Positions 48,323 through 64,000 of a stretch of DNA of 64,000 nucleotides are shown here, one piece after another. The notes under the pieces are model-generated. The model was not told the origin of the DNA. It made no database searches and was given only the letters and a program-made list of their open reading frames with translations. This stretch comes from Marivirga arenosa. GTDB lineage: Bacteria; Bacteroidota; Bacteroidia; Cytophagales; Cyclobacteriaceae. Each line of letters starts with the position of its first letter. The stretch's first letter is position 1. The DNA lies in assembly GCF_030503875.2 (NCBI RefSeq), contig NZ_CP129968.2:2506001-2570000 (forward strand). The letters run 5' to 3'. Both the position numbers and the translations under genes were made by a program.

Positions 48323-49105
48323 TTATCCTAATGGATGGAAGTTAACATTGCAATTATTCTCTACAAGCCTATCTTTCAACTCGCTCCCAACTATAATTCT
48401 TTTGTCTGCCGCTGCTCCACTTCCAAAATACTCCTGGGTCTTAAAAATAGGTAAAGGATCTTTAGAAACTAAGGTAGGAAAAAATCCTTTTGCAATTGGT
48501 AAGTACTTTACCCTTCCACATAATTGACAGCTTTGACTAGGATAATAATTCATATCATCTAATGAATAGCTAGTGGTAGGTAATATTAATTGTACAACTG
48601 AGCTTGAAACCTTACCTGTTTTATGGATTATTACCTTTTCAGATTCAACACCTAGCGGTTTAAATAATTGATCATATAGTTCAGCTTTTACAAATAGCTC
48701 CTCAAATATCCAATTCAGTAAAAAAATTGACTTTTTACCCCATTTCGGCTCAACTTTAATTCTTAAAGGTGACTTTTGAACTTTACCAATTCCACATGAT
48801 GAACAATAATCACTTAGATCATAGCATTGTTCCAAATAATCATCCTCCGGTTGAGGGAAACCGTTAATCCATTTCGGATAAACAACAGCACTAACAGACT
48901 TTCTAACCTCTGCCTTTGTAAATTTTGTTTCAACAACATCTGAAGCTTCCCATGCTATTAACATCCTTTTAATTTCATTCCAATGTTTATGAGTCTCTTC
49001 TACAACGAAAGTTTGAAATCCTTCATCCAATCTTATTCCGCATGACCCAAGCATTTCACGTTGTTGTCCATCAACATTTAATGTAATACGATGTTCTATT
49101 TTCAT
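48323..49105 (-). CDS. Probable immunity protein of the first Rhs tip, with two CxxC pairs
   Basis: 260 residues. Its ATG overlaps the Rhs tip stop by 4 bp, the usual toxin-immunity layout. It has YCSSCGIGKVQKSPLRI and SCQLCGRVKYLPIAKG, so a zinc-ribbon-like site is likely, and an IIVGSELKDRLVENN end as in some Imm11/DUF1629-like proteins. The terminal NFHPLG echoes the recombinase ending at 13179 (17 identical bases), which may be chance. Immunity function is inferred from position; I do not recognise the family firmly. Confidence 0.65.
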   Translation of the reverse strand: MKIEHRITLNVDGQQREMLGSCGIRLDEGFQTFVVEETHKHWNEIKRMLIAWEASDVVETKFTKAEVRKSVSAVVYPKWINGFPQPEDDYLEQCYDLSDYCSSCGIGKVQKSPLRIKVEPKWGKKSIFLLNWIFEELFVKAELYDQLFKPLGVESEKVIIHKTGKVSSSVVQLILPTTSYSLDDMNYYPSQSCQLCGRVKYLPIAKGFFPTLVSKDPLPIFKTQEYFGSGAAADKRIIVGSELKDRLVENNCNVNFHPLG

Positions 49106-50160
49106 TTCAGTTTAAGTGCATTTAAAATTTCCGGATAATCTTTATATATCTGTCTTGCTGTGTTTATCACTTGTTCGCGAGTAGCATTTATAGTACCGTT
49201 TCCATATGGTATCGCCTTTCTCCAAGCATTAGTAAATGCTTGATGTTCTGTTTTAGTTAATGCAATAGAGAGCATTTGAGTTGCTTTCTCACCCATAATT
49301 GAAGCAAACCTTTTCTCTATCAAATGATGTACTTGCAACCCTTTCCCTGCAGTTAAGGCCTTTAAAGCACCGTAGCTTTTAATCCCATATTGATTCGCAA
49401 AAGCAAACTTTCCAAATTGAGATGTTCTTGTTCCCAAAATAACCCATTTACCCCCTCTAAATATGGCCTTCACTACTGTTCCACCAACAAAAAAGCTCAA
49501 AAGTTCTGCATTAGCTCTAAGCATATCACCATCTGTAAAATGTTCTGCTGTACAATTTGCATCACACTTATGGTTTGCTGGAGTATCAAACGCCTCTAAA
49601 TTATTACCATTTTTTCTAATTCCTGTTCCCGGGGTATTAACTTGTTTTAGACCATTATCAGCCACGCCCTCCTTACAGGGTGGGTCATCACATCCACCTT
49701 CCTCACTATCATCACTATCTGAGTTTGAACCTATTCCATAGTAAGATAAAACGTCTTCAAACCCTTCATCCCCAGAATTCCATTTTCCAGCTTCGCCTTC
49801 ATACAAGCCATTAGGGTCTATGTAACTAATAGGATTATTAAATCCATATCGAAAAGGTGTTAATTCTGGCGAAAGATCAGCCATTGGATCAATCACATGC
49901 CATCGTCCTAATGATGGGTCATACATCCTAGCCCCGTAATCCAACCATCCAGTTTCTTCCTGCTCTTCCTTGCTGTTGTATTTGTAATTGTTCGCCTTGC
50001 TGTAGCTTCTCTGATAGGAGTTAAAAGGCAAGCCAAAAGGATAGTAATTATAGCGATTTTTTAGCGCACACTCTTTTTTCTTTAGGCTCTCCCCTAAAAA
50101 AACAGCGGTTTTGCCCATGCTTTCCCCTGCCTGTCGGTATGATAATTTTAAACAGCCCAT
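49102..50160 (-). CDS. Orphan Rhs tip with HNH-like nuclease toxin domain
   Basis: 352 residues. It starts MGCLKLSYRQAGESMGKTAV and has the Rhs-associated core NNYKYNSKEEQEETGWLDYG, ARMYDPSLGRWHVIDPMADL, FRYGFNNPISYIDPNGLYEG, then a variable region. The C-terminal 90 residues hold GLQVHHLIEKRFASIMGEKA and LTKTEHQAFTNAWRKAIPYG, an HNH/endonuclease VII-type pattern with His278-His279 and a distal His. No long Rhs shell or signal peptide is present, so it is a stand-alone tip that may act after recombining with a full Rhs gene, or be made directly. The first 42 codons are identical to those of the second tip. Confidence 0.85.
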   Translation of the reverse strand: MGCLKLSYRQAGESMGKTAVFLGESLKKKECALKNRYNYYPFGLPFNSYQRSYSKANNYKYNSKEEQEETGWLDYGARMYDPSLGRWHVIDPMADLSPELTPFRYGFNNPISYIDPNGLYEGEAGKWNSGDEGFEDVLSYYGIGSNSDSDDSEEGGCDDPPCKEGVADNGLKQVNTPGTGIRKNGNNLEAFDTPANHKCDANCTAEHFTDGDMLRANAELLSFFVGGTVVKAIFRGGKWVILGTRTSQFGKFAFANQYGIKSYGALKALTAGKGLQVHHLIEKRFASIMGEKATQMLSIALTKTEHQAFTNAWRKAIPYGNGTINATREQVINTARQIYKDYPEILNALKLK

Positions 50161-50260
50161 TTAAGCTTTCAAGATAATAATATTTTTTTTCGCCCTCGCC
50201 TGTTTTTTAAGTTTTCATTCGTATAAGTAGTAAATAACTTAATTTTAAAAACATATGATT

Positions 50261-50473
50261 ATGGCACACAATTTCGATTACAATAAAATTATGGAGACTT
50301 ACAACAATGCTGCAAGCCCTGTTGCTGCTAATGGGGCATTTGATTTAGTAAGAACATCATTAAAAGACGGTCACGAGGTTCAGATTAATTTTGGAGAAGG
50401 ACAACAGTCTAAAAGGTTTACAAAGATTGAAGACTTTAATAAATGGGTTGCCGACATTAAGGAGAGGATTTAA
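50261..50473 (+). CDS. Small conserved protein of the unit, unknown function
   Basis: 70 residues from ATG 50261 (MAHNFDYNKIMETYNNAASP); an ATG two codons earlier is equally possible. Acidic-amphipathic, with SLKDGHEVQINFGEGQQSK and a Trp near the end (KWVADIKERI). It is divergent from the Rhs tip and shares its 94-bp promoter region. A good start region and unchanged presence in both units support it being real. It could be a regulator or a chaperone-like partner of the tip; I do not recognise it. Confidence 0.65.
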   Translation: MAHNFDYNKIMETYNNAASPVAANGAFDLVRTSLKDGHEVQINFGEGQQSKRFTKIEDFNKWVADIKERI

Positions 50474-50590
50474 ATAGTTTGTTGGCAATATAAACTAACG
50501 TTTTTTTGAAGGATAAAAGCTTTGGGCGTGCGTGGGATTGTGTGGCATTTATTCTTCAAAAAAATGATCCAAGCGAACTGCTGCACCCCA

Positions 50591-50686
50591 TTAAATGTAA
50601 AAAATCTGGCAGAGCGCGGTAAGTATCCTGATCACTAAAACGACCACAACAATTTGCTGGAACCACTTCACTTTCCCGACCTGCAC
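50591..50686 (-). CDS. Possible 31-residue hydrophobic peptide
   Basis: From GTG 50686 the frame reads VQVGKVKWFQQIVVVVLVIR followed by ILTALCQIFYI and stops. A basic start plus one membrane-spanning segment is the form of type I toxin peptides and other small membrane proteins. A GGAAAG lies inside the frame, so a shorter form from an internal GTG (KWFQ...) may be the product. This is weak evidence. Confidence 0.25.
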   Translation of the reverse strand: MQVGKVKWFQQIVVVVLVIRILTALCQIFYI

Positions 50687-50695
50687 TGTCTGCTC

Positions 50696-50837
50696 TGCGG
50701 GCCCCTGCGGGCGCCACCACCAGCCTGCCAAGGGGGAACGTAGCAAAGCGGAGAGGCTTGGCAGTGCGGACAGCCTTTGGATTGTGCGTCTGGTTTGCGG
50801 GGGCTGTACGGGACTGGTGGTGGCACGCAGGCCCGCA
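50696..50837. other. Predicted three-way-junction structure
   Basis: Outer arms 50696-50723 (TGCGGGCC...GCCACCACCAG) and 50814-50837 pair over about 23 bases with a few bulges. Inside are two hairpins: CTGCCAAG (50725-50732) with CTTGGCAG (50757-50764), and ACAGCC (50770-50775) with GGCTGT (50802-50807). Nested pairing of three stems in a GC-rich island suggests a folded RNA or a cruciform recombination or replication site. Confidence 0.6.
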
Positions 50838-51132
50838 CTAACTCGGGCTGTGGTTTTGTTTTTTTGCCTTTGCCCCGCAGGGATCAAACACATCAAAAAA
50901 ACAAAAAGGAACAGACGTGGCGAGGAGCGGATGGCAAGCAAGGGGAGGAAAATGCAAATAGGGTTTGTGCGGCTGCTAAATATGCGCTGTACTCTGATAC
51001 CGATTTACCTGCTTATGCTTTTTTGCTAAGCGGGTGATCCATTAACAACAATCAGTGTGCAGCGCATGTTTTAAGGCGTGAAGATTTGCATTTTTCCGCA
51101 CTGCAGCCTTGCCAACGCACCACAGGCACACC

Positions 51133-51245
51133 GCTTCACCAAGTATTTTTCCGACCCCTCGATGGGGAAGAAAAAATAAACTGCTCACTCTCGTATCGCA
51201 CCACTCTCGGCATGGTTCCGCCCGTGCGGAACCAACTACTGCCCT
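51133..51245. repeat. Conserved non-coding segment with GGTTCCGC hairpin
   Basis: Homologous to 45826-45934. GGTTCCGC (51214-51221) and GCGGAACC (51226-51233) form a perfect stem; the loop is CCGT here and ACGC in the older copy, and the flanking line ends aaccaactactg in both. There is no T tract on either strand, so it is not a standard terminator of the adjacent toxin gene. Confidence 0.7.
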
Positions 51246-51286
51246 ACTGCTTTTTGGTGGAGTTGATATAAAGATTTTACTGGGGG

Positions 51287-51607
51287 TTATCTCTTTTTCT
51301 GGATGTTTGAGGGATCTCTGCTTGTATGAAAAATATCAAGGATCAAGATTGCTTTACTGGTAATCTCGTAAATTATTTTATAGCTCCATATTACTTTATA
51401 ACGATAATTACCAGGTTCACCCTTTAAATTAGGCTCTTCTTCAAATTTCTCAGGAAAGTCGCTCAAAGACTTGGATTGTGCTACTATTTCGTTTCTGACT
51501 TTCTTGGCTACCTCAATGGATTCTCTTTTCTTAATATAGTTGTAAATACTTCTTAATGATCTTTTTGCTTCATCATCCCAGATAATACCTAACCTTTTCT
51601 TTACCAT
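51287..51607 (-). CDS. ParE/RelE-family toxin of the unit
   Basis: 106 residues: LGIIWDDEAKRSLRSIYNYI, then RNEIVAQSKSLSDFPEKFEE, YRYKVIWSYKIIYEITSKAI and the end motif FHTSRDPSNIQKK. The layout fits ParE-like toxins. The start overlaps the antitoxin stop by 7 bp. It may stabilise the element in the host by post-segregational killing. Confidence 0.87.
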   Translation of the reverse strand: MVKKRLGIIWDDEAKRSLRSIYNYIKKRESIEVAKKVRNEIVAQSKSLSDFPEKFEEEPNLKGEPGNYRYKVIWSYKIIYEITSKAILILDIFHTSRDPSNIQKKR

Positions 51608-51855
51608 TCCTGCATCTCTTTTTCAAGATCATCCTGAGTAGTATATTGACCTTTCGCTATTCTTGCTTTAGCATCCCTGACCCTTGTCTTTAATTGATTT
51701 GCCGTCATAGGTTTGCCCGATAAAGTATAATCATCTTGCGTATATTCTTTAGCTACAGCATAAAGCATTTTTATAAGCCTAGCATCTCCTTCTTCTATAA
51801 AATGGTAGAGTTCTTCTTTGATCTTAGGTGCTCCCATAATTGATGTTATTTCCAT
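51601..51855 (-). CDS. Antitoxin of the unit
   Basis: 84 residues, related to the antitoxins at 12882 and 46277 through KEELYHFIEEGDARLIKMLY. The C-terminus (TTQDDLEKEMQEW) is the likely toxin-binding part. An in-frame ATG at 51837 (MGAPKIKEEL) is an alternative start and fits the relatives better. It lies 30 bp after the second recombinase gene. Confidence 0.82.
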   Translation of the reverse strand: MEITSIMGAPKIKEELYHFIEEGDARLIKMLYAVAKEYTQDDYTLSGKPMTANQLKTRVRDAKARIAKGQYTTQDDLEKEMQEW

Positions 51856-51885
51856 ACAAATTAACGATTTATTTTTGCAATTAAT

Positions 51886-52815
51886 TCATCCCATCGGATG
51901 GAACTGCTGGATTTCTTCTTTTAAGCTTTCTACATCGTTTCTTAAATAGCTTTCTGTACTGCTGATATAGCGATGGCCTGCTAGGTATTGAACTTCTCTT
52001 AGATTATGGCCTCTTAGCCACTTAGTAATCACACTCGATCTGATCTGCTCAGCATTTTTTACTCTACTATTTATCTGTTTTACCTTTAGCATTAACTGCG
52101 TCATAAAATTGCTAAAACTATAGCAGTTACCTGCTTCTCCAATAAATAGTCTATTGGTTACCTGTGGCTTTTGGCTTTTTCTTTTAGGTTTCATCTGCAA
52201 CAGCTCAGCTCGAACATGTAATATATAGTCGTATAAATCCATGACCTGATAGCTTTCTAACTGCAGCAATCTGCCGTTATATTTTTTACCTCCCAGTACA
52301 TCGAGGTTTCCTTCTCTTAATTTAATATGGCTCACTTCTAATCTGGCTAACTCTGTTGTTCTTAAGCCTTGGTAAATCAGCATGCCTAGCATCACTTTAT
52401 TACGCTTATCCTGATGGCTTTCAGCAGGATATTGATTATACAGGCTGTGGAGATCCTCACTACTTAATATGGGGTAAAGCGTTTTCCTTTTAATGCCTTT
52501 TACAGCTATATCTGTTACTGGATCTTTACTGATCAACTCTTCCTCTAGTAAATAATTATAGAAGTGCTTAATAGTGCCTATATAACTTTGTATTGTTCTT
52601 TGGCTTACTTCCCTGCTATTGCACCATTTCATAAAACTTAATAAGTCTGTATAGCTTACTTCTGTCACTGACAGATTCTCTATAGCTAGCCAGTCAAAGT
52701 AGACCGATACTATCCTTAATCTACTCTTGATACTTGCTTTACTGGCTTGTTTTACTTTCAGATACTTTATAAAACCTTCTTTCAGCTGTACTTGGTTTAT
52801 TAACTCATCTTTCAT
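51886..52815 (-). CDS. Tyrosine recombinase, second of a tandem pair (one active-site His missing)
   Basis: 309 residues from ATG 52815 (MKDELINQVQLKEGFIKYLK), which overlaps the end of the first recombinase by 11 bp; the frame is open to 52899. An SAM-like N-terminal core-binding domain precedes the catalytic domain. Numbered from 52899, the catalytic Arg180 (YQGLRTTEL), Lys in GGKKYNGR, Arg287 (EQIRSSVITKW), His309 (LAGHRY) and nucleophile Tyr318 (STESY) are present. The first His of the HxxR box is Glu284. It may need the partner enzyme. The C-terminus EEIQQFHPMG recurs as relics at 13179 and 46571. Confidence 0.9.
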   Translation of the reverse strand: MKDELINQVQLKEGFIKYLKVKQASKASIKSRLRIVSVYFDWLAIENLSVTEVSYTDLLSFMKWCNSREVSQRTIQSYIGTIKHFYNYLLEEELISKDPVTDIAVKGIKRKTLYPILSSEDLHSLYNQYPAESHQDKRNKVMLGMLIYQGLRTTELARLEVSHIKLREGNLDVLGGKKYNGRLLQLESYQVMDLYDYILHVRAELLQMKPKRKSQKPQVTNRLFIGEAGNCYSFSNFMTQLMLKVKQINSRVKNAEQIRSSVITKWLRGHNLREVQYLAGHRYISSTESYLRNDVESLKEEIQQFHPMG

Positions 52816-53821
52816 CTTCTGATAGCTGGATATATTCATAGACGGGTATATTTTTATAGACTGTTTGTTGCTCACTGGGCTTATGCTGAAGGTGCGCATA
52901 GATTTGCGTACTTTCTAAGCTGCTATGACCTAAAAACCTGCTAATGCTTTCCAGTTTCATACCTGCTGTTAATAGGTGGGTAGCTATGCTATGCCTGAGC
53001 GTATGTAATCCTATCTCCTTTTCTATTAAGTCCAAGTCTCCTGTTTGGTATTGCAACTTCTTTAGTCTAAGCAGAAGGCTTTGGCCTTGCATGCCTTTTC
53101 CTGAGCTGTAACTAATAAAAAGCTTACCTATCTTGCTGCCTCTGCTTAAAGCTGTTCTATGATCATAGACATAACTAATTAAATGGTGTAGATTCCTTTT
53201 ACTGATTGGTACTAACCTTTCTTTATAGTTCTTCCCTCCTTTCACATGCAATATGCTGCTATCAAAATTGATATCTTCTACTTCCAGCTGTACGCCTTCA
53301 TTTCTTCTTAGACCACAACCATAGTAAATAGCTAGCATGGCTCTGTCTCTTGACTGTATTGCTTCATATAGTTGATCTGAGGCATTCGGCTTTCTATCAG
53401 GTAACTGATAGCTTGCCTTAAAAAGAAGCCTAATTTCTTCCACTGTCAGATAGTCTAGCTTCCTGACCGCTTCTTCATCTTTTAACCTGATTGCAGGGAT
53501 TTCCAGCCTGCCTACCTTTCTCAAGTATTCAGTAAACTTTCGTAATGCCTGTATATGCTTGTTCAGGTGGCCATTACTTAGCCCACCGCCCCGCCTGTTG
53601 TTAGCTCGTTCCTTTAGCTTTTGGTAATAGCCTTCAATGTGCTTTGTTTTTAGCTCTCTGATGTTTTTGATTTCCTGCTGCTCAAGATAGTGGAGCAGTT
53701 CACGAACGTGTAAGGGAAGGTTGTACACAGTAGTAATACTATAGCCCTGCACGGCAAGCCATTCTTTGAAGCTTTCTTCCAGATAGCGATATGAGGCATT
53801 GGATAGGTTTAACTTTTTCAT
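52805..53821 (-). CDS. Tyrosine recombinase (XerC/D-like), first of a tandem pair
   Basis: 338 residues with a full active site: Arg172 (GCGLRRNEG), Lys194 or 197 (VKGGKNYK), His283 and Arg286 (LHTLRHSIATH), His309 (FLGHSSLEST) and Tyr318 (TQIYAHL). The N-terminal domain (TTVYNLPLHVRELLHYLEQQ) is of the core-binding type. Two adjacent overlapping recombinases recall Tn554-like or recombinase-trio elements, but only two are present here. They presumably move or resolve the unit. Confidence 0.92.
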   Translation of the reverse strand: MKKLNLSNASYRYLEESFKEWLAVQGYSITTVYNLPLHVRELLHYLEQQEIKNIRELKTKHIEGYYQKLKERANNRRGGGLSNGHLNKHIQALRKFTEYLRKVGRLEIPAIRLKDEEAVRKLDYLTVEEIRLLFKASYQLPDRKPNASDQLYEAIQSRDRAMLAIYYGCGLRRNEGVQLEVEDINFDSSILHVKGGKNYKERLVPISKRNLHHLISYVYDHRTALSRGSKIGKLFISYSSGKGMQGQSLLLRLKKLQYQTGDLDLIEKEIGLHTLRHSIATHLLTAGMKLESISRFLGHSSLESTQIYAHLQHKPSEQQTVYKNIPVYEYIQLSEDER

Positions 53822-54187
53822 CTATATTTATTCTAACTTTATCACTCCAATGACTACTTTTTGGCACTTATTATCAGGCAAGTATTGCAGGTTCTCAGGT
53901 AATCGCCTAACAGGCTCTGTTTTTCACTTCGGTTGGTGTTTCCAGAACTTTTGAACTTTGCTTATAAACTCTTGACAGGCTGCAGCTTTACTGGTTCATT
54001 GAGTAAGTGAACCACCCTTGAACCACCTATGAACATCCCCCTTTATTTTACTACTTCTTCCTTTAGTACTATTTATACTACGATTGAATAAAGCTTAATG
54101 AACCTAATCAGATATATACTATATTAAGCTGTTTCACGGTGCTCTGTCTATAACATGCACCGAGTACTCCCCTTTGGGGAATGATTC
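53822..54187. other. Non-coding segment between ATPase and recombinase genes
   Basis: 366 bp with no supported gene. It contains the GGTTCA/TGAACC array (53993-54024), a CGGTGC...GCACCG dyad (about 54138-54163), and a small CCCC-TTT-GGGG hairpin (about 54170-54181) just after the ATPase stop that may end its transcript. Promoter of the recombinase pair is expected here. Confidence 0.55.
53993..54024. promoter_or_regulatory. Inverted and direct TGAACC repeats, candidate recombinase or regulator site
   Basis: GGTTCA (53993-53998) and TGAACC (54008-54013) are inverted around a 9-bp spacer, and TGAACC recurs at 54019-54024. Two inverted arms with a 6-9 bp centre is the form of a tyrosine-recombinase core site, with the direct repeat as an extra arm. 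It could equally be an operator. Confidence 0.35.
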
Positions 54188-55711
54188 TTACTCTTTTAAT
54201 ACTTTTAGCAACTGATCTAATACACCTCCCACATTTTGCTTTAAGCTTTCATATTCTTCCATTTCTACTATTCTATAATGATGCACTTTGCCCTTTTCTC
54301 CTTTGATCTTCTCTACAAAATCATAGGCCTGCAACTCTACCATATACCGCTTCTGATTGCTAGGATTTATTCTGGTTGCTTTCCGTACTTCCTGATTGGT
54401 AAATTCTTCTTTCCCCTCCTTCTTTAACCATGATTTCAACCATTCCAGATAATTTCGACTTGCCTCATTCAAGGGATCGGATTTCCTGATCAATACTTCC
54501 TTCATCAGCTTATTGGCTTCTTCTATATCTTCAAGAGTTGTATTGATGTAAACCTCTCCTGTTTCCCTATCGGTTTCTTCCTCTCTTTGGTATTGATGGT
54601 AAAAAGTCACCGCTTCGATGAAGGCTAAATAATGCGCATTCGTTCTTCTGGGCTTAAACACGATAGCTGGTAGCTGCAACTGCTCTGCATAAGGGTTTCT
54701 GATGCTTACAGGCTTTAACACACGTTGTGTATTTTTTAAGAGCTCTTGTAATTGATGGGCTGCTGCTATATCTACTTTACCTGCTGATAACTTCCGCTGA
54801 TAGGCCATAATTTTTTCATCCTGCCCCCTGCTTTCATCTATGTAAATCATAAACGATCGATTCGCATTATCTTCATACAGACTTTCTTTAGTGGTACAGC
54901 CTGCTACACAAACAGGGCCTTCTACTGTTAAGGTCACTGTTCTGGTCTCTCCTTTTGTGTTTTTAACTACTACCGTTTTGGTGATCCGCTTTTTGCTCTT
55001 GATTTCTCTTAGAGGATAAAGTACTTCTTCCGCACCGTCCAGGTCTTCTATGAGTATGAGTTTGTTTCTTAGTTCCTGCTGACCAAAATAGTAAAAGGCA
55101 TTGCCGCTCAGGCTGGTGATTTCCAGCTTATCCTCTTCGGGGATTAAAGCTGCTACTTTCTCTTGCAAATGGGTTTTACCTATGCCAGAACTGCCCAAGC
55201 TAATCACATGCAGCGGATTATCTCTTTTTCGGCTCGTAAAGATCAAATACATCAATAGCCTGTTGTTTTCTTCTCCTATCACTCCTGCCTTGCCTATATC
55301 CTCTTTTGTGCGTTCTATCAAGTTAGGAGCTTTTAAATATTGTAAGGCTTCCTTTCGCTCTGTGGTAGTGAGTTGCTTGCGCTTATCTTGTGTTTGGACT
55401 TTTAATTCTATTTCTTTTAGTCTGTAGGCTTCCAGCTCGTCTGTGAGTTCTGTTAATGCCGCTGCTGCTACACTCGTTCCTATTTCTAACCTTTCTGCTA
55501 TTTTCCTGATCAGCTTTTCTGTTTGGGTATCATTGTATAAATCAAGGTTGTGGCGCAAGCTTAAGTGTTCCACTTGGATTTTCAGGGTTGCCCTCATCCT
55601 GTCCAAGCCTTCCATTCTAATACCTCCTAAAATAGCGATTTCTAATGCTCCCTGAGTAAAGGTGAGATGTTCGGGGTTGGAAGTATCTAAAGGTTCTGTG
55701 GTAGCTTTCAT
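54188..55711 (-). CDS. P-loop ATPase of the mobile unit
   Basis: 507 residues from ATG 55711 (MKATTEPLDTSNPEHLTFTQ); earlier in-frame ATGs extend into the operator region. Walker A is SLGSSGIGKTHLQEKV (about residues 172-185) and Walker B KLILIEDLDGAEE. A CTTKESLYEDNANRSFMIYI segment looks like sensor and arginine-finger positions. An N-terminal helical part and a C-terminal winged-helix-like end (FTNQEVRKATRINPSNQKRY) suggest a DNA-handling ATPase such as a primase-associated or helicase-loader-like protein. Exact family not recognised. Confidence 0.75.
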   Translation of the reverse strand: MKATTEPLDTSNPEHLTFTQGALEIAILGGIRMEGLDRMRATLKIQVEHLSLRHNLDLYNDTQTEKLIRKIAERLEIGTSVAAAALTELTDELEAYRLKEIELKVQTQDKRKQLTTTERKEALQYLKAPNLIERTKEDIGKAGVIGEENNRLLMYLIFTSRKRDNPLHVISLGSSGIGKTHLQEKVAALIPEEDKLEITSLSGNAFYYFGQQELRNKLILIEDLDGAEEVLYPLREIKSKKRITKTVVVKNTKGETRTVTLTVEGPVCVAGCTTKESLYEDNANRSFMIYIDESRGQDEKIMAYQRKLSAGKVDIAAAHQLQELLKNTQRVLKPVSIRNPYAEQLQLPAIVFKPRRTNAHYLAFIEAVTFYHQYQREEETDRETGEVYINTTLEDIEEANKLMKEVLIRKSDPLNEASRNYLEWLKSWLKKEGKEEFTNQEVRKATRINPSNQKRYMVELQAYDFVEKIKGEKGKVHHYRIVEMEEYESLKQNVGGVLDQLLKVLKE

Positions 55712-55732
55712 TTTTCTAAAAATAATTTTTAC

Positions 55733-55843: not shown

Positions 55844-55859
55844 TTTTACTTACTTATCT

Positions 55860-56449: not shown

Positions 56450-56450
56450 A

Positions 56451-56587: not shown

Positions 56588-56929
56588 TTAATCTTGATCA
56601 ATAGTTCGATAACCATTCTCCCATTCTTTGGAGTCTGAGTAGTAGATCAATGATTCACCTAATGAAGTCCCAAACCAAACAGTATAGTAAACACTATCTC
56701 GTTTTTCATAGAATAGTTCTTCAGAATCAATATTACTTAAATCAACTTCATTTAGAGTATTAGGTAGTTTTCCATGCAATGCCGAATATTCCTCTATCTT
56801 TTCAACTAGCAAATTACCATTTCTTTTTAACCTGTTCTCGTCAAAATCACGTAGAAAAACGAAATAGACTAGTAAAATAATTGATATTACCAATCCAATA
56901 AGAATTGTTGCTTTTTTCATATTAGTCAT
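56588..56929 (-). CDS. Membrane-anchored probable immunity protein of the second Rhs tip
   Basis: 113 residues. A single N-terminal helix (ATILIGLVISIILLVYFVF) is followed by a soluble domain: VEKIEEYSALHGKLPNTLNE and YYTVWFGTSLGESLIYYSDS. The pattern after the helix resembles pilin-like or small immunity domains. The start overlaps the tip stop by 4 bp (ATGA), the usual toxin-immunity layout. Location at the membrane suggests the toxin is met there or in the periplasm. Function is inferred from position. Confidence 0.65.
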   Translation of the reverse strand: MTNMKKATILIGLVISIILLVYFVFLRDFDENRLKRNGNLLVEKIEEYSALHGKLPNTLNEVDLSNIDSEELFYEKRDSVYYTVWFGTSLGESLIYYSDSKEWENGYRTIDQD

Positions 56930-57906
56930 TCTTTTGTATCCTCTTTCTTCTCTTCTTCTGTTGTGTGTTTCGGATCAGAAGACATATTTGTCTCGGTTGG
57001 TGGTGTAGATGTGTCATCCGCATCTGGCAAATTGTCGTAGTTTGGTGCATTTTCTGGATCAGTCGCTCCCAAGACATCAACTAAGAAATTCTGTAACTGC
57101 TCAGCAAATGACAGATCGCTTTCAGGGTCAAAGAAATCTGCTCCAAATTGTGCACCAAATTTATCACTAGGTAAATCCTCATAACTAAAAGCTGAATGCT
57201 CCGCATTAATCATATCACCTAACTCTTGCAACAGTCCATCTTGTAATGCTTTACCAACAGGGTGTTCTTCTCCATTTTGCTTATAGCCATAACTTCTACC
57301 AGCATAAAACATGAAGTGCGCCATGTCGACCCAACCACCTTTTTTGGTATAGATATATCGGTTACCACCTGAAGTATTAAAGGGAGCAGTATTCGCTGGC
57401 TTAGGACCTTTAAAGGTCATCTTAGTTTTACCCATTCTTAGCATTCCAGCATTTGCATCACTGCCTCTTGTTTTTCCCAAACCTGTTGATAAATTATTCA
57501 TGAAGGAAACAAACCCCTGAACCGTACCAGCTAAAGGTTTAATAGGTTCATTTCCATCAGGGTCAATATTTCCAATAGGGTTATTCAGGACATAATTATA
57601 TGGACTATATGCAGAATATTTCTCACTTAGGTTATCAACTCCATTCCATCTCCCTAAATCAGGCTGATACATTCTTGCCCCATAGTCAATCCACCCTGTT
57701 TCTTCCTGCTCCTCCTTGCCGTTGTACTTGTAATTATTCGCCTTTGAGTAGCTCCTCTGATAGGAGTTAAAGGTTAGACCAAAAGGATAGTAATTATAGC
57801 GATTTTTTAGCGCACACTCTTTTTTCTTTAGGCTCTCCCCTAAAAAAACAGCGGTTTTGCCCATGCTTTCCCCTGCCTGTCGGTATGATAATTTTAAACA
57901 GCCCAT
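56926..57906 (-). CDS. Orphan Rhs tip with an unrecognised C-terminal domain
   Basis: 326 residues. The start and first 42 codons are identical to the first tip; the Rhs core is similar (NNYKYNGKEEQEETGWIDYG, ARMYQPDLGRWNGVDNLSEK, YVLNNPIGNIDPDGNEPIKP). After that it differs entirely: NRYIYTKKGGWVDMAHFMFY and AGRSYGYKQNG, with conserved-looking Trp/Asp/His residues, then an acidic Pro/Thr-rich tail. WVDMAHF with its Asp and His might be a catalytic site. The toxin family is unknown to me. Confidence 0.8.
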   Translation of the reverse strand: MGCLKLSYRQAGESMGKTAVFLGESLKKKECALKNRYNYYPFGLTFNSYQRSYSKANNYKYNGKEEQEETGWIDYGARMYQPDLGRWNGVDNLSEKYSAYSPYNYVLNNPIGNIDPDGNEPIKPLAGTVQGFVSFMNNLSTGLGKTRGSDANAGMLRMGKTKMTFKGPKPANTAPFNTSGGNRYIYTKKGGWVDMAHFMFYAGRSYGYKQNGEEHPVGKALQDGLLQELGDMINAEHSAFSYEDLPSDKFGAQFGADFFDPESDLSFAEQLQNFLVDVLGATDPENAPNYDNLPDADDTSTPPTETNMSSDPKHTTEEEKKEDTKE

Positions 57907-58006
57907 TTAAGCTTTCAAGATAATAATATTTTTTTTCGCCCTCGCCTGTTTTTTAAGTTTTCATTCGTATAAGTAGTAAATAACTTAATTTTAAAAACAT
58001 ATGATT

Positions 58007-58219
58007 ATGGCACACAATTTCGATTACAATAAAATTATGGAGACTTACAACAATGCTGCAAGCCCTGTTGCTGCTAATGGGGCATTTGATTTAGTAAGAA
58101 CATCATTAAAAGACGGTCACGAGGTTCAGATTAATTTTGGAGAAGGACAACAGTCTAAAAGGTTTACAAAGATTGAAGACTTTAATAAATGGGTTGCCGA
58201 CATTAAGGAGAGGATTTAA
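58007..58219 (+). CDS. Small conserved protein of the unit (copy 2)
   Basis: Identical to the protein at 50261-50473, including its divergent position next to an Rhs tip. Its retention beside a different tip suggests it serves the unit rather than one particular toxin. Confidence 0.65.
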   Translation: MAHNFDYNKIMETYNNAASPVAANGAFDLVRTSLKDGHEVQINFGEGQQSKRFTKIEDFNKWVADIKERI

Positions 58220-58336
58220 ATAGTTTGTTGGCAATATAAACTAACGTTTTTTTGAAGGATAAAAGCTTTGGGCGTGCGTGGGATTGTGTGGCATTTATTC
58301 TTCAAAAAAATGATCCAAGCGAACTGCTGCACCCCA

Positions 58337-58432
58337 TTAAATGTAAAAAATCTGGCAGAGCGCGGTAAGTATCCTGATCACTAAAACGACCACAACAATT
58401 TGCTGGAACCACTTCACTTTCCCGACCTGCAC
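58337..58432 (-). CDS. Possible hydrophobic peptide (copy 2)
   Basis: Same 31-codon GTG frame as at 50591-50686, with the same doubts about its start and reality. Confidence 0.2.
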   Translation of the reverse strand: MQVGKVKWFQQIVVVVLVIRILTALCQIFYI

Positions 58433-58441
58433 TGTCTGCTC

Positions 58442-58583
58442 TGCGGGCCCCTGCGGGCGCCACCACCAGCCTGCCAAGGGGGAACGTAGCAAAGCGGAGA
58501 GGCTTGGCAGTGCGGACAGCCTTTGGATTGTGCGTCTGGTTTGCGGGGGCTGTACGGGACTGGTGGTGGCACGCAGGCCCGCA
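58442..58583. other. Predicted three-way-junction structure (copy 2)
   Basis: Identical to 50696-50837, so it offers no independent covariation evidence. The surrounding GC-rich segment 58220-59032 likewise has no supported gene. Confidence 0.6.
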
Positions 58584-58878
58584 CTAACTCGGGCTGTGGT
58601 TTTGTTTTTTTGCCTTTGCCCCGCAGGGATCAAACACATCAAAAAAACAAAAAGGAACAGACGTGGCGAGGAGCGGATGGCAAGCAAGGGGAGGAAAATG
58701 CAAATAGGGTTTGTGCGGCTGCTAAATATGCGCTGTACTCTGATACCGATTTACCTGCTTATGCTTTTTTGCTAAGCGGGTGATCCATTAACAACAATCA
58801 GTGTGCAGCGCATGTTTTAAGGCGTGAAGATTTGCATTTTTCCGCACTGCAGCCTTGCCAACGCACCACAGGCACACC

Positions 58879-58991
58879 GCTTCACCAAGTATTTTTCCGA
58901 CCCCTCGATGGGGAAGAAAAAATAAACTGCTCACTCTCGTATCGCACCACTCTCGGCATGGTTCCGCCCGTGCGGAACCAACTACTGCCCT
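58879..58991. repeat. Conserved GGTTCCGC hairpin segment (copy 2)
   Basis: Identical to 51133-51245; the hairpin is at 58960-58979. Confidence 0.7.
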
Positions 58992-59032
58992 ACTGCTTTT
59001 TGGTGGAGTTGATATAAAGATTTTACTGGGGG

Positions 59033-59353
59033 TTATCTCTTTTTCTGGATGTTTGAGGGATCTCTGCTTGTATGAAAAATATCAAGGATCAAGATTGCTT
59101 TACTGGTAATCTCGTAAATTATTTTATAGCTCCATATTACTTTATAACGATAATTACCAGGTTCACCCTTTAAATTAGGCTCTTCTTCAAATTTCTCAGG
59201 AAAGTCGCTCAAAGACTTGGATTGTGCTACTATTTCGTTTCTGACTTTCTTGGCTACCTCAATGGATTCTCTTTTCTTAATATAGTTGTAAATACTTCTT
59301 AATGATCTTTTTGCTTCATCATCCCAGATAATACCTAACCTTTTCTTTACCAT
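59033..59353 (-). CDS. ParE/RelE-family toxin of the unit (copy 2)
   Basis: Identical to the toxin at 51287-51607. Two identical toxin-antitoxin pairs can cross-neutralise, so losing one unit would not by itself release toxin activity. Confidence 0.87.
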   Translation of the reverse strand: MVKKRLGIIWDDEAKRSLRSIYNYIKKRESIEVAKKVRNEIVAQSKSLSDFPEKFEEEPNLKGEPGNYRYKVIWSYKIIYEITSKAILILDIFHTSRDPSNIQKKR

Positions 59354-59601
59354 TCCTGCATCTCTTTTTCAAGATCATCCTGAGTAGTATATTGACCTTT
59401 CGCTATTCTTGCTTTAGCATCCCTGACCCTTGTCTTTAATTGATTTGCCGTCATAGGTTTGCCCGATAAAGTATAATCATCTTGCGTATATTCTTTAGCT
59501 ACAGCATAAAGCATTTTTATAAGCCTAGCATCTCCTTCTTCTATAAAATGGTAGAGTTCTTCTTTGATCTTAGGTGCTCCCATAATTGATGTTATTTCCA
59601 T
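59347..59601 (-). CDS. Antitoxin of the unit (copy 2)
   Basis: Identical to the antitoxin at 51601-51855, with the same 7-bp overlap with the toxin gene and the alternative start 18 bp inside. Confidence 0.82.
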   Translation of the reverse strand: MEITSIMGAPKIKEELYHFIEEGDARLIKMLYAVAKEYTQDDYTLSGKPMTANQLKTRVRDAKARIAKGQYTTQDDLEKEMQEW

Positions 59602-59631
59602 ACAAATTAACGATTTATTTTTGCAATTAAT

Positions 59632-60561
59632 TCATCCCATCGGATGGAACTGCTGGATTTCTTCTTTTAAGCTTTCTACATCGTTTCTTAAATAGCTTTC
59701 TGTACTGCTGATATAGCGATGGCCTGCTAGGTATTGAACTTCTCTTAGATTATGGCCTCTTAGCCACTTAGTAATCACACTCGATCTGATCTGCTCAGCA
59801 TTTTTTACTCTACTATTTATCTGTTTTACCTTTAGCATTAACTGCGTCATAAAATTGCTAAAACTATAGCAGTTACCTGCTTCTCCAATAAATAGTCTAT
59901 TGGTTACCTGTGGCTTTTGGCTTTTTCTTTTAGGTTTCATCTGCAACAGCTCAGCTCGAACATGTAATATATAGTCGTATAAATCCATGACCTGATAGCT
60001 TTCTAACTGCAGCAATCTGCCGTTATATTTTTTACCTCCCAGTACATCGAGGTTTCCTTCTCTTAATTTAATATGGCTCACTTCTAATCTGGCTAACTCT
60101 GTTGTTCTTAAGCCTTGGTAAATCAGCATGCCTAGCATCACTTTATTACGCTTATCCTGATGGCTTTCAGCAGGATATTGATTATACAGGCTGTGGAGAT
60201 CCTCACTACTTAATATGGGGTAAAGCGTTTTCCTTTTAATGCCTTTTACAGCTATATCTGTTACTGGATCTTTACTGATCAACTCTTCCTCTAGTAAATA
60301 ATTATAGAAGTGCTTAATAGTGCCTATATAACTTTGTATTGTTCTTTGGCTTACTTCCCTGCTATTGCACCATTTCATAAAACTTAATAAGTCTGTATAG
60401 CTTACTTCTGTCACTGACAGATTCTCTATAGCTAGCCAGTCAAAGTAGACCGATACTATCCTTAATCTACTCTTGATACTTGCTTTACTGGCTTGTTTTA
60501 CTTTCAGATACTTTATAAAACCTTCTTTCAGCTGTACTTGGTTTATTAACTCATCTTTCAT
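59632..60561 (-). CDS. Tyrosine recombinase lacking one active-site His (copy 2)
   Basis: Identical to the recombinase at 51886-52815, including the replaced His and the 11-bp overlap with the upstream recombinase. Confidence 0.9.
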   Translation of the reverse strand: MKDELINQVQLKEGFIKYLKVKQASKASIKSRLRIVSVYFDWLAIENLSVTEVSYTDLLSFMKWCNSREVSQRTIQSYIGTIKHFYNYLLEEELISKDPVTDIAVKGIKRKTLYPILSSEDLHSLYNQYPAESHQDKRNKVMLGMLIYQGLRTTELARLEVSHIKLREGNLDVLGGKKYNGRLLQLESYQVMDLYDYILHVRAELLQMKPKRKSQKPQVTNRLFIGEAGNCYSFSNFMTQLMLKVKQINSRVKNAEQIRSSVITKWLRGHNLREVQYLAGHRYISSTESYLRNDVESLKEEIQQFHPMG

Positions 60562-61567
60562 CTTCTGATAGCTGGATATATTCATAGACGGGTATATTTT
60601 TATAGACTGTTTGTTGCTCACTGGGCTTATGCTGAAGGTGCGCATAGATTTGCGTACTTTCTAAGCTGCTATGACCTAAAAACCTGCTAATGCTTTCCAG
60701 TTTCATACCTGCTGTTAATAGGTGGGTAGCTATGCTATGCCTGAGCGTATGTAATCCTATCTCCTTTTCTATTAAGTCCAAGTCTCCTGTTTGGTATTGC
60801 AACTTCTTTAGTCTAAGCAGAAGGCTTTGGCCTTGCATGCCTTTTCCTGAGCTGTAACTAATAAAAAGCTTACCTATCTTGCTGCCTCTGCTTAAAGCTG
60901 TTCTATGATCATAGACATAACTAATTAAATGGTGTAGATTCCTTTTACTGATTGGTACTAACCTTTCTTTATAGTTCTTCCCTCCTTTCACATGCAATAT
61001 GCTGCTATCAAAATTGATATCTTCTACTTCCAGCTGTACGCCTTCATTTCTTCTTAGACCACAACCATAGTAAATAGCTAGCATGGCTCTGTCTCTTGAC
61101 TGTATTGCTTCATATAGTTGATCTGAGGCATTCGGCTTTCTATCAGGTAACTGATAGCTTGCCTTAAAAAGAAGCCTAATTTCTTCCACTGTCAGATAGT
61201 CTAGCTTCCTGACCGCTTCTTCATCTTTTAACCTGATTGCAGGGATTTCCAGCCTGCCTACCTTTCTCAAGTATTCAGTAAACTTTCGTAATGCCTGTAT
61301 ATGCTTGTTCAGGTGGCCATTACTTAGCCCACCGCCCCGCCTGTTGTTAGCTCGTTCCTTTAGCTTTTGGTAATAGCCTTCAATGTGCTTTGTTTTTAGC
61401 TCTCTGATGTTTTTGATTTCCTGCTGCTCAAGATAGTGGAGCAGTTCACGAACGTGTAAGGGAAGGTTGTACACAGTAGTAATACTATAGCCCTGCACGG
61501 CAAGCCATTCTTTGAAGCTTTCTTCCAGATAGCGATATGAGGCATTGGATAGGTTTAACTTTTTCAT
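60551..61567 (-). CDS. Tyrosine recombinase with full active site (copy 2)
   Basis: Identical to the recombinase at 52805-53821; all catalytic residues are present. Confidence 0.92.
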   Translation of the reverse strand: MKKLNLSNASYRYLEESFKEWLAVQGYSITTVYNLPLHVRELLHYLEQQEIKNIRELKTKHIEGYYQKLKERANNRRGGGLSNGHLNKHIQALRKFTEYLRKVGRLEIPAIRLKDEEAVRKLDYLTVEEIRLLFKASYQLPDRKPNASDQLYEAIQSRDRAMLAIYYGCGLRRNEGVQLEVEDINFDSSILHVKGGKNYKERLVPISKRNLHHLISYVYDHRTALSRGSKIGKLFISYSSGKGMQGQSLLLRLKKLQYQTGDLDLIEKEIGLHTLRHSIATHLLTAGMKLESISRFLGHSSLESTQIYAHLQHKPSEQQTVYKNIPVYEYIQLSEDER

Positions 61568-61738
61568 CTATATTTATTCTAACTTTATCACTCCAATGAC
61601 TACTTTTTGGCACTTATTATCAGGCAAGTATTGCAGGTTCTCAGGTAATCGCCTAACAGGCTCTGTTTTTCACTTCGGTTGGTGTTTCCAGAACTTTTGA
61701 ACTTTGCTTATAAACTCTTGACAGGCTGCAGCTTTACT

Positions 61739-61770
61739 GGTTCATTGAGTAAGTGAACCACCCTTGAACC
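61739..61770. promoter_or_regulatory. TGAACC inverted/direct repeats (copy 2)
   Basis: Identical to 53993-54024, inside the 366-bp non-coding segment 61568-61933. Confidence 0.35.
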
Positions 61771-61933
61771 ACCTATGAACATCCCCCTTTATTTTACTAC
61801 TTCTTCCTTTAGTACTATTTATACTACGATTGAATAAAGCTTAATGAACCTAATCAGATATATACTATATTAAGCTGTTTCACGGTGCTCTGTCTATAAC
61901 ATGCACCGAGTACTCCCCTTTGGGGAATGATTC

Positions 61934-63457
61934 TTACTCTTTTAATACTTTTAGCAACTGATCTAATACACCTCCCACATTTTGCTTTAAGCTTTCATAT
62001 TCTTCCATTTCTACTATTCTATAATGATGCACTTTGCCCTTTTCTCCTTTGATCTTCTCTACAAAATCATAGGCCTGCAACTCTACCATATACCGCTTCT
62101 GATTGCTAGGATTTATTCTGGTTGCTTTCCGTACTTCCTGATTGGTAAATTCTTCTTTCCCCTCCTTCTTTAACCATGATTTCAACCATTCCAGATAATT
62201 TCGACTTGCCTCATTCAAGGGATCGGATTTCCTGATCAATACTTCCTTCATCAGCTTATTGGCTTCTTCTATATCTTCAAGAGTTGTATTGATGTAAACC
62301 TCTCCTGTTTCCCTATCGGTTTCTTCCTCTCTTTGGTATTGATGGTAAAAAGTCACCGCTTCGATGAAGGCTAAATAATGCGCATTCGTTCTTCTGGGCT
62401 TAAACACGATAGCTGGTAGCTGCAACTGCTCTGCATAAGGGTTTCTGATGCTTACAGGCTTTAACACACGTTGTGTATTTTTTAAGAGCTCTTGTAATTG
62501 ATGGGCTGCTGCTATATCTACTTTACCTGCTGATAACTTCCGCTGATAGGCCATAATTTTTTCATCCTGCCCCCTGCTTTCATCTATGTAAATCATAAAC
62601 GATCGATTCGCATTATCTTCATACAGACTTTCTTTAGTGGTACAGCCTGCTACACAAACAGGGCCTTCTACTGTTAAGGTCACTGTTCTGGTCTCTCCTT
62701 TTGTGTTTTTAACTACTACCGTTTTGGTGATCCGCTTTTTGCTCTTGATTTCTCTTAGAGGATAAAGTACTTCTTCCGCACCGTCCAGGTCTTCTATGAG
62801 TATGAGTTTGTTTCTTAGTTCCTGCTGACCAAAATAGTAAAAGGCATTGCCGCTCAGGCTGGTGATTTCCAGCTTATCCTCTTCGGGGATTAAAGCTGCT
62901 ACTTTCTCTTGCAAATGGGTTTTACCTATGCCAGAACTGCCCAAGCTAATCACATGCAGCGGATTATCTCTTTTTCGGCTCGTAAAGATCAAATACATCA
63001 ATAGCCTGTTGTTTTCTTCTCCTATCACTCCTGCCTTGCCTATATCCTCTTTTGTGCGTTCTATCAAGTTAGGAGCTTTTAAATATTGTAAGGCTTCCTT
63101 TCGCTCTGTGGTAGTGAGTTGCTTGCGCTTATCTTGTGTTTGGACTTTTAATTCTATTTCTTTTAGTCTGTAGGCTTCCAGCTCGTCTGTGAGTTCTGTT
63201 AATGCCGCTGCTGCTACACTCGTTCCTATTTCTAACCTTTCTGCTATTTTCCTGATCAGCTTTTCTGTTTGGGTATCATTGTATAAATCAAGGTTGTGGC
63301 GCAAGCTTAAGTGTTCCACTTGGATTTTCAGGGTTGCCCTCATCCTGTCCAAGCCTTCCATTCTAATACCTCCTAAAATAGCGATTTCTAATGCTCCCTG
63401 AGTAAAGGTGAGATGTTCGGGGTTGGAAGTATCTAAAGGTTCTGTGGTAGCTTTCAT
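61934..63457 (-). CDS. P-loop ATPase of the mobile unit (copy 2)
   Basis: Identical to the ATPase at 54188-55711, with the start again placed at the ATG that leaves the operator region free. Confidence 0.75.
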   Translation of the reverse strand: MKATTEPLDTSNPEHLTFTQGALEIAILGGIRMEGLDRMRATLKIQVEHLSLRHNLDLYNDTQTEKLIRKIAERLEIGTSVAAAALTELTDELEAYRLKEIELKVQTQDKRKQLTTTERKEALQYLKAPNLIERTKEDIGKAGVIGEENNRLLMYLIFTSRKRDNPLHVISLGSSGIGKTHLQEKVAALIPEEDKLEITSLSGNAFYYFGQQELRNKLILIEDLDGAEEVLYPLREIKSKKRITKTVVVKNTKGETRTVTLTVEGPVCVAGCTTKESLYEDNANRSFMIYIDESRGQDEKIMAYQRKLSAGKVDIAAAHQLQELLKNTQRVLKPVSIRNPYAEQLQLPAIVFKPRRTNAHYLAFIEAVTFYHQYQREEETDRETGEVYINTTLEDIEEANKLMKEVLIRKSDPLNEASRNYLEWLKSWLKKEGKEEFTNQEVRKATRINPSNQKRYMVELQAYDFVEKIKGEKGKVHHYRIVEMEEYESLKQNVGGVLDQLLKVLKE

Positions 63458-63478
63458 TTTTCTAAAAATAATTTTTAC

Positions 63479-63589
63479 TGATATATTTATCATAAATCTA
63501 TAAGATATATCAGAACAAAGCAAGACTTATATGATTTGATTATGATATTTATATCACCTACTTTTACCTAAAGCATCATATTTATATCA
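63479..63589. promoter_or_regulatory. Operator-like dyads (copy 2)
   Basis: Same three dyads as 55733-55843, at 63479-63492, 63543-63556 and 63576-63589. Confidence 0.65.
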
Positions 63590-63605
63590 TTTTACTTACT
63601 TATCT

Positions 63606-63938
63606 ATGACTTTAGGCAACCATATCGCCACTTTACGCAAGAATAAAAAAATATCACAGCAAGAGCTGGGCAAGCTTGCTGGCACCTCTGGCGATCTCAT
63701 TGGGCGCTATGAAAGAGATGAGGTAAAACCCTCTATTGATGTGGTCATTAAGATAGCTGATGCATTAAATGTATCACTCGACTTCCTTGTAGGTAAAACT
63801 GATCTTGAGCTCGATACTGATGCACTAAAAAGGCTGGAACTGATTTCTAAACTCCCGCAGGAAGAAAAAAAACAACTACTACACGTTATCGATGCACTTC
63901 TAAGAGATTTTAACGCTAAAAAAGCTTATGCTTTATGA
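63606..63938 (+). CDS. Cro/C1-type regulator (copy 2)
   Basis: Identical to the regulator at 55860-56192. With two copies of repressor and operators, the units would regulate each other. Confidence 0.9.
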   Translation: MTLGNHIATLRKNKKISQQELGKLAGTSGDLIGRYERDEVKPSIDVVIKIADALNVSLDFLVGKTDLELDTDALKRLELISKLPQEEKKQLLHVIDALLRDFNAKKAYAL

Positions 63939-64000
63939 GGACTAAAATTGAAGAGTTCAATGGCACTCATGTTTCTATTCGTTTTTTCCCAGATTCAGAA
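63935..64000 (+). CDS. Small protein coupled to the XRE regulator (copy 2, partial)
   Basis: The first 22 codons match the protein at 56189-56449; the window ends inside the gene. Confidence 0.65.
   Translation, partial: MRTKIEEFNGTHVSIRFFPDSE

Follow-up and report, generated by a model that had tools for sequence, protein, structure and literature searches.

How does a gene for a secreted Rhs protein change its toxin end without losing its function? In the available text of earlier work, such changes have so far been ascribed to homologous recombination with hypothetical circles (PMC2935791, PMC10539506). A locus of Marivirga arenosa bears on this question. It lies at the end of the 64,000-nucleotide stretch analysed here (the window; NZ_CP129968.2, positions 2506001-2570000 of a 4.05-Mb, 2-contig genome, of which the next 40 kb were fetched too), where a 7746-bp unit carrying an Rhs tip, its partner gene, two tyrosine recombinases and a P-loop ATPase is repeated in tandem next to a full-length rhs gene. 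We conclude that this unit is very probably a site-specific integrative element that targets rhs itself and replaces its C-terminal tip and partner gene. The support is sequence-based: the unit boundaries, the in-frame fusion to rhs, a core site at every junction, element-free alleles, recurrence in other genomes, and different tips on near-identical platforms.

Four identical units lie between a rhs gene and a probable older tip

A first-pass annotation, made from the letters of the window, had described two units with a 7746-bp period that differ in their Rhs toxin and its partner gene. The repeat is real and its period exact, but the array is both larger and simpler than this. Identity at a lag of 7746 is perfect over window positions 50033-73286, and the periodic stretch runs from 50033 to window-equivalent position 81032. 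As these 31,000 bp equal 4 x 7746 + 16, the array consists of four identical units, of which the window contains unit 1 and most of unit 2 before the array extends past the window end. All four units carry the same 326-amino-acid (aa) Rhs tip and 113-aa partner. The odd tip/partner pair (352 and 260 aa, 48323-50160) sits outside the last unit boundary, and the reading of two cassettes within the array was therefore rejected.

To the right of the array, a 2818-aa rhs open reading frame (ORF; window-equivalent 80164-88620, minus strand) crosses the last junction in frame into the unit's tip. All five matches to the Rhs-core model TIGR03696 in the whole 4.05-Mb genome are at this locus. The 352-aa tip most likely formed the end of this gene at an earlier time and now lies displaced behind the array. 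The proposal that the platform stacks different toxin/immunity cassettes in this array drew on the two different tips within the window, and stacking does hold at three loci of other genomes (L121, L145 and L100). Here, with one tip shared by four units and the other beyond them, the array does not stack different cassettes; the proposal is refuted for this array and we give it almost no credence.

The copy number is taken from a public assembly, in which the copies are 100% identical across 31 kb, as might be expected of an artefact or of a collapsed or expanded repeat. Yet the array has unique sequence on both sides within a 4.02-Mb contig, tandem identical units occur elsewhere (6/19 neighbouring pairs, and two circular plasmids), and the two array ends define the insertion at any copy number, so that an assembly artefact is very unlikely. 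In the conspecific genome G390 the outer flanks are kept (97-98% identity) and the ~50 kb between them are gone (about 43.4 kb to window-equivalent 93.4 kb). Thus, the whole rhs region with its array is accessory. A clean empty site at the same locus was not found within the species, G390 being without the entire region.

Every junction carries the same core site

The same 16-bp core, ATTACTATCCTTTTGG (rhs sense), is present at five of five junctions. It encodes (D/N)YYPFG, with which the Rhs-associated core domain begins, and the TIGR03696 match starts on it, at residue 39 of both tips. To the right of the core (rhs sense), the sequence continues into the unit tip, or into the older tip at the far end; to its left lies the rhs body or the unit's other end. 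Divergence is abrupt on the non-homologous side of each junction.

The unit's other end supplies the tips behind it with a leader, MGCLKLSYRQ. Accordingly divided, the displaced-tip ORF would comprise older rhs tip in the codons below about 50048 and, in codons 50049-50160, the leader MGCLKLSYRQ... from the element end. As a general rule, the idea that the element gives displaced tips a start codon was rejected: most downstream tips appear by eye to be without the MGCLKL leader, and the rule could apply at best to a subgroup.

What does the target look like without an element? In three rhs homologues from the same genus (L174, L172 and L173) the gene is uninterrupted across the core codons, no element is present, and other tips follow; these are homologous alleles and do not represent one locus in one strain. 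Over the 90 nt left of the core, their identity to the rhs body beside the array is 90% (L174), 80% (L172) and 64% (L173), versus 22-28% for the element end. The core itself is identical at 16/16 positions in L174 and has two base differences each in L172 and L173. The genomes of all three gave no ATPase match. Another contig of the genus (L176) holds a related element whose tip and partner differ and whose ATPase region is 80% identical. Relics are present in L175 (genome G310, 4800-11310), likewise of the genus: the element-end leader, a ParE gene and, at two positions, fragments of the GC-rich island. Its genome gave no ATPase match.

Taken together, a recombinase with catalytic residues (Rec2, below), a direct-repeat core at both ends and empty homologous alleles are what is expected of an integrative element, and a conserved core with a variable tip and an older tip downstream is what is expected of Rhs tip displacement.

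The unit encodes two recombinases and a P-loop ATPase

The first-pass gene list for the shared block agrees with our ORF calls and family matches (Table 1). Rec2 has a complete catalytic set (R172, K197, H273, R276, H299 and Y308); in an alignment of 90 sequences R172, H273 and R276 are kept in 90/90 and H299 and Y308 in 89/90. Rec1 is more divergent and keeps R287, H309 and Y318 (alignment of 82). Neither recombinase qualifies as an integron integrase, both scoring far under the cut-off (36 and 91 versus 265 bits).

The ATPase of the window probably starts downstream of the TTG. Its relatives at L053, L054, L058 and L063 have an N-terminal CHC2 zinc finger and a Toprim domain, both of which the window's protein is without; all four long ATPases scanned have this DnaG-like primase part (CHC2 + Toprim). 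A PDB sequence search with the ATPase gave matches limited to the primase part and a short P-loop stretch. PADLOC found nothing among the window proteins, and one long relative gave primase-type and weak matches only.

We also considered a phage or satellite origin and rejected it: none of 7 proteins scanned matched a structural PHROG, and the viral matches of the ATPase were three distant ones in viral_contigs and five weak Sulfolobus virus matches in phage records. The families matched by the unit's main ORFs include no relaxase and no type IV secretion component, as would be expected of an integrative conjugative element.

Table 1. Features at the left end of the array (window positions).
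Feature	Position	Strand	Basis
260-aa candidate immunity partner of the displaced tip, overlapping the stop of that tip with its start	48323..49105	-	ORF; position and overlap
352-aa displaced Rhs tip	49102..50160	-	TIGR03696 from residue 39, the core site; diverges from unit tip just past the core
Core copy, displaced-tip junction	50033..50048	-	identical across five junctions
Element copy 1, 7746 bp including its own core copy	50049..57794	-	exact lag-7746 identity with three other copies
72-aa ORF, unit 1	50255..50473	+	ORF call
GC-rich intergenic island	50474..51286	.	GC 0.57 at 50700-50999
ParE-family toxin	51287..51607	-	PF05016, E 1.5e-14
84-aa putative antitoxin	51601..51855	-	position upstream of ParE-family toxin
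Tyrosine recombinase Rec1, Xer-like, divergent	51886..52899	-	PF00589, E 1.3e-12
Tyrosine recombinase Rec2	52805..53821	-	PF00589, E 6.3e-32
P-loop ATPase	54188..55777	-	Walker-type motif, by eye
XRE/helix-turn-helix (HTH) regulator, divergent from ATPase gene	55860..56192	+	PF01381, E 1.3e-14
86-aa ORF overlapping XRE gene	56189..56449	+	ORF call
113-aa candidate immunity partner of the element's tip	56588..56929	-	ORF, 4-bp overlap with tip
326-aa Rhs tip of unit 1	56926..57906	-	ORF; TIGR03696; last-unit copy fused in frame to 2818-aa rhs
Core copy, units 1/2	57779..57794	-	identical across five junctions
Element copy 2, cut at window end, runs to window-equivalent 65540	57795..64000	-	lag-7746 identity

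The toxin and immunity roles of tips and partners are predicted from their position, their overlap and the toxin domains of relatives. The toxin part of the 326-aa tip bears a weak resemblance to DUF4056 that stays under the cut-off (E 0.0012), and PF13265 is precomputed for several of its homologues. No Pfam match was found for the toxin part of the 352-aa tip or for its 260-aa partner, and the 113-aa partner had no significant family match. Among the small ORFs, the 72-aa protein had no match in Pfam, NCBIfam or PHROG, the 86-aa protein none in PHROG or NCBIfam, and the putative antitoxin none above cut-off in any family. A ParE-like gene on the platform strand is present in 10/77 relatives' loci.

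The non-coding island, which had been called structured in the first pass, is GC-rich but folds no better than expected: its part 50560-51000 (minus strand) gives a z of -1.44, with 9/100 shuffles as good, and no Rfam family matches the window at gathering scores. A special RNA structure was accordingly rejected. Within this genome, 50560-51100 occurs in the four units only, and the island is partly conserved in the same-genus loci L175 and L176. One could speculate that it holds an origin or an accessory att region.

Two features lie left of the displaced tip. A second toxin-antitoxin pair (45986-46540; PF09720 / ParE) resembles, by eye, the pair that follows Rec1 in a Fulvivirga locus (L085, 6562-7175) and may be a remnant of another element. 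A 417-aa protein (46903-48156), which adjoins the displaced pair and has a weak rve integrase-core match below cut-off, is possibly an insertion sequence transposase.

The platform recurs beside rhs genes across Bacteroidota

Is the platform of recombination and ATPase genes also found at other rhs loci? Relatives of the ATPase are present in 24 of 390 genomes of an order sample (own genome counted), at 41 listed places. In 20 loci that we picked from these, 16 have an Rhs ORF; three of the exceptions are on contigs of 3.0-5.8 kb (L030, L055 and L056) and the fourth is L057. A second set of 77 loci, with which the 20 partly overlap, came from an ATPase-alignment scan of genome_contigs. It represents the top 80 among at least 363 confirmed stretches, a choice that favours near relatives.

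The order HTH(-), ATPase, Rec2, Rec1 is complete in 63/77 loci, and by our reading most of the 14 incomplete platforms are cut by a contig end or broken. Where a platform has at least 3 kb of sequence on the side in question (testable platforms), an Rhs ORF lies upstream in 55/59 and downstream in 42/48, and these ORFs are oriented with the platform in 119 cases and against it in 2. The 77 loci lack independence (a single contig includes both L091 and L110, and L083 and L086 come from one metagenome-assembled genome), hence we recounted with one locus per ATPase cluster of at least 90% identity, which gave an Rhs ORF upstream in 42/46 and downstream in 40/45. Among 76 first platforms (L108 was dropped, its ATPase being split), 21 follow an in-frame rhs body of at least 300 aa, 22 an Rhs ORF that runs to the contig edge, 16 an orphan tip and 17 no Rhs ORF, many of these last having little upstream sequence.

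The first-pass annotation had proposed a mobile platform bundling an Rhs tip and its partner with recombinases of its own. The neighbourhood of the block in related genomes, with Rhs tips attached, strongly supports this, and makes it a family rather than a single case. The condition named there as refuting, a shared block never found beside Rhs tips in related genomes, was not borne out, given the upstream Rhs ORF in 55/59 platforms.

In Tenacibaculum (L104 and L106) the platform is followed by two extra tyrosine recombinase-like genes, and no downstream Rhs tip was detected. The L083 and L086 contigs come from a Rickettsiales-labelled assembly, nest with Cytophagales elements and are probably mis-binned.

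Crossovers fall mostly on a few codons

To map crossovers we used an ungapped method on 19 pairs, each made up of a rhs body with 150 aa or more ahead of the core and the tip that follows it; it replaced an earlier gapped-alignment breakpoint finder (18 pairs), which was noisy. A list of longest exact matches for all neighbouring pairs was in many cases uninformative, both members being array-internal tips. The crossover lies at YYPFG/DYYPGG in 10/19 pairs (in L083 a few codons inside) and at YxYGFNGKE-like codons in 4/19. In the 17 measurable pairs, identity over the 60 nt left of the crossover is 0.15-0.42.

A pattern near the core, A4+N(C/T)GC, is present at 26/54 element-end junctions and 1/25 rhs-body junctions; having been picked after the junctions were viewed, it serves as a description and not as a test. 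To us it looks like a possible Xer half-site.

Relatives on plasmids and in Proteobacteria, including E. coli

Circular plasmids of two Bacteroidota, Aureispira and Aureibacter, carry, in tandem, a full rhs gene, a small gene, HTH(-), primase and recombinase genes and an Rhs tip; the second recombinase gene of the Aureispira plasmid is annotated as hypothetical. Crossovers in these plasmids map to SNHLGNV and YRYGFNGKE codons. The Paraburkholderia module (one XerC annotated) lies behind a filamentous-haemagglutinin gene and has another toxin tip after it, with a shared segment of 95 nt, 88% identical. A Lonsdalea record is an 11,289-bp circle with two Rhs tips and their partners, HTH, primase and XerC genes and a toxin-antitoxin pair. 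This circle is a candidate for the free form, but it could equally have arisen as a by-product of assembling a chromosomal array.

The DNA of the Lonsdalea primase matches 59/5426 complete E. coli genomes at 198 places, none of them on plasmids. The E. coli form has one annotated recombinase. In all six carriers that we opened (MP1, G3X16-2, R12, A20, EC77 and A36; of the 59), the element is in a rhs locus upstream of yddH, where K-12 MG1655 and GF130 have no element; K-12 rhsE and the rhs gene of GF130 are annotated as pseudogenes, the latter without its N-terminus. The tip end and partner of GF130 recur behind the element in R12 at 99.7% identity. The segment shared by E. coli rhs and the displaced tips begins at or just past DPIGL codons, with 75-76% identity. 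The E. coli units (loci L187, L188, L189, L193, L200 and L201) also have a SymE-family gene between the partner and the HTH gene, and in a few copies primase or xerC is frameshifted as annotated.

Near-identical platforms carry different tips

The cargo is diverse: 113 toxin parts fall into 91 single-linkage clusters. Pfam searches of 102 tips found AHH in 3 and M91 in 2, and single tips with TseH, M23, Tox-URI2, EndoU, Tox-REase-9, WHH, Fic, Ntox50 and colicin DNase domains, among others. At other loci there are 19 neighbouring unit pairs, with tips comparable in 17. In six of the 19 (L091, L105, L113, L137, L138 and L149) both ATPases and tips are identical. At L121 and L145, stretches of the neighbouring platforms agree at 99.4% (3142 bp) and 99.6% (3962 bp), respectively, and their tips are unrelated, and the L100 platform is a mosaic, 99% then 77% identical. 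E. coli R12 and A20 differ in the tip and partner that lie between a shared rhs body (99.4% identity) and a shared platform (96.8%) at one rhs site. Interchangeable cargo on one platform is thus real, elsewhere than in this array, and the stacking of different toxin/immunity pairs, which fails for the four identical tips of the window, is sound for L121 and L145, as is the exchange of pairs for the two E. coli strains.

A selfish integrative element, for which rhs is a safe target, might carry a tip merely to keep the gene readable, with toxin renewal as a by-product; such an element could insert by just the mechanism favoured here. All 21 loci with a rhs body of at least 300 aa have an open frame across the junction, as would be needed, and the four identical tips here add no weapon diversity. 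However, an end that only restores a gene should stay the same, and neither the 91 clusters nor the R12/A20 difference fits this. We regard such an element as possible but rather doubtful.

A model for tip replacement, and what weighs against it

Based upon these findings, we propose that the Xer-like recombinases join the element core to the matching (D/N)YYPFG codons of a resident rhs gene. Because the element's tip begins at these same codons, insertion would keep rhs in frame, provide it with a new C-terminal toxin and place that toxin's own partner (immunity) gene next after it. The tip and partner previously there would be shunted behind the element. Tandem arrays such as the four units here could then arise through additional insertions or through unequal exchange among units, and homologous recombination might afterwards reshuffle the units. 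The change of tip would be the work of an element with its own recombination genes and, in relatives, replication genes, and the codon conservation imposed by Rhs function would make a dependable target. The recombinases would act as catalysts, the element may pass through a circular intermediate, be replicated by its primase-ATPase and be transferred from cell to cell, and displaced tips may be expressed.

Several points weigh against this model. Excision, integration and transfer of the element are predicted events. In the alignment of 82, Rec1 has Arg at the Arg-I position in 14 and His at the box-II position in 12; because these two usual catalytic positions are mostly missing, Rec1 may assist as a partner, with the main catalysis done elsewhere. 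At 16 bp the core is short, and RecA could also make use of the Rhs homology past it. L171, a fourth homologue of the rhs body from the genus, had no core motif by regex and was left out of the comparison of element-free alleles. The crossover lies farther upstream in 3/19 pairs (L087, L130 and L137) and is ambiguous in 2/19 (L084 and L102), the shared segment is in some cases short or weakly matching (L083, 38 nt at 0.68; L152, 26 nt), and A4+N(C/T)GC is missing by regex in 28/54 element-end junctions. Platforms without an upstream Rhs ORF (L081, L119, L146 and L151) or without a downstream one (L085, L099, L104, L106, L120 and L151) also exist. The ATPase tree groups by host order (9 changes versus a shuffled mean of 15.6), and wide transfer across orders is therefore not demonstrated. 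Finally, E. coli MP1 and R12 are the one close before/after pair, a whole unit apart, and their crossover is not at the core but in a 65-bp identical tract downstream of xerC. Thus, homologous recombination between units also acts.

Could homologous recombination account for everything? In ordinary Rhs C-terminal displacement of the RecA type, as modelled by Jackson et al., 2009, the recombinase-primase module would be a passenger between tips. The MP1/R12 exchange in a shared tract, mosaic platforms such as L100 and the Rhs core homology to the right of the crossover are all consistent with this. On the other hand, the left boundaries fall mostly on the same few codons across many taxa, with unrelated DNA to their left; the window junctions share just 16 bp; the platform is conserved in order and in position beside Rhs; and a passenger would need no tip at its own end. 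We therefore consider displacement by RecA alone improbable, and site-specific insertion of an element into rhs the better account of these loci.

Relation to known systems

Site-specific insertion inside a gene with replacement of its 3' end is familiar from integrative elements such as e14 at icd. There the new end is near-equivalent to the old one, whereas the end brought in here is a diversified toxin domain accompanied by a partner gene. In shufflons, a tyrosine recombinase swaps C-terminal segments at short conserved coding sites, but it does so by inversion in a fixed locus, in place of the insertion of a whole element with partner and replication genes proposed here. RIT elements are likewise small elements based on tyrosine recombinases, and we know of no CHC2/Toprim primase-ATPase or rhs target in them or in GInt islands. 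A further point of comparison with both is the number of recombinases, two here and one annotated in the Proteobacteria loci. GInt islands, as far as their description was available, are also small and built on tyrosine recombinases (PMC5385486).

Toxin/immunity modules have been described as mobile before. The orphan cdiA-CT/cdiI and rhs-CT modules of Poole et al., 2011 (PMC3150448) are similar, in the text available, in that toxin/immunity sequences are exchanged between full-length genes; unlike here, 'recombinase' and 'integrase' have 0 occurrences in the main text. XerC/D-type recombinases beside some polyimmunity loci were suggested to aid accumulation by Zhang et al., 2012 (PMC3482391), the accessible parts of which mention neither an element with a core site nor the delivery of a tip in frame, nor any primase-ATPase. 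In the portions of text at hand, two Ornithobacterium hominis papers report displaced rhs tips and do not link recombinases to them, work on Serratia Rhs has CT-I units exchanged 'through homologous recombination' (PMC10539506), and a Proteus mirabilis paper on contact-dependent inhibition (CDI) places a SymE gene inside the CDI cluster, with no primase. None of the open-access papers listed describes this element, subscription journals being outside that coverage.

The closest precedent is the Rhs displacement of Jackson et al., 2009 (PMC2935791), in which, in the sections available, a new tip likewise joins a conserved core and the old tip comes to lie downstream; circular intermediates were proposed there and an episomal pool of tips predicted. 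Unlike in that account, dedicated recombinases and a primase-ATPase here co-occur with Rhs. Its mechanism, homologous recombination across shared core sequence, would lead one to expect variable breakpoints; most crossovers found here are at a few fixed codons, and one gain or loss of a unit does look homologous. With the element come an actual set of enzymes, a defined site and a circle that can be tested for, as well as an E. coli version for genetics, and it would explain both the arrays of orphan tips and partners and the in-frame joining of each new tip. On balance, we favour, with some reserve, the view that these loci belong to an unrecognised, widespread superfamily of replicating integrative elements (HTH/primase-ATPase/Xer-like recombinase) in Bacteroidota and Proteobacteria, including E. 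coli. Such elements would be dedicated to rewriting the C-termini of secreted polymorphic toxins (Rhs, and at one locus a CdiA-like protein) by site-specific insertion at the codons of invariant motifs, and their circles would be the episomal reservoir of tips that was predicted in 2009.

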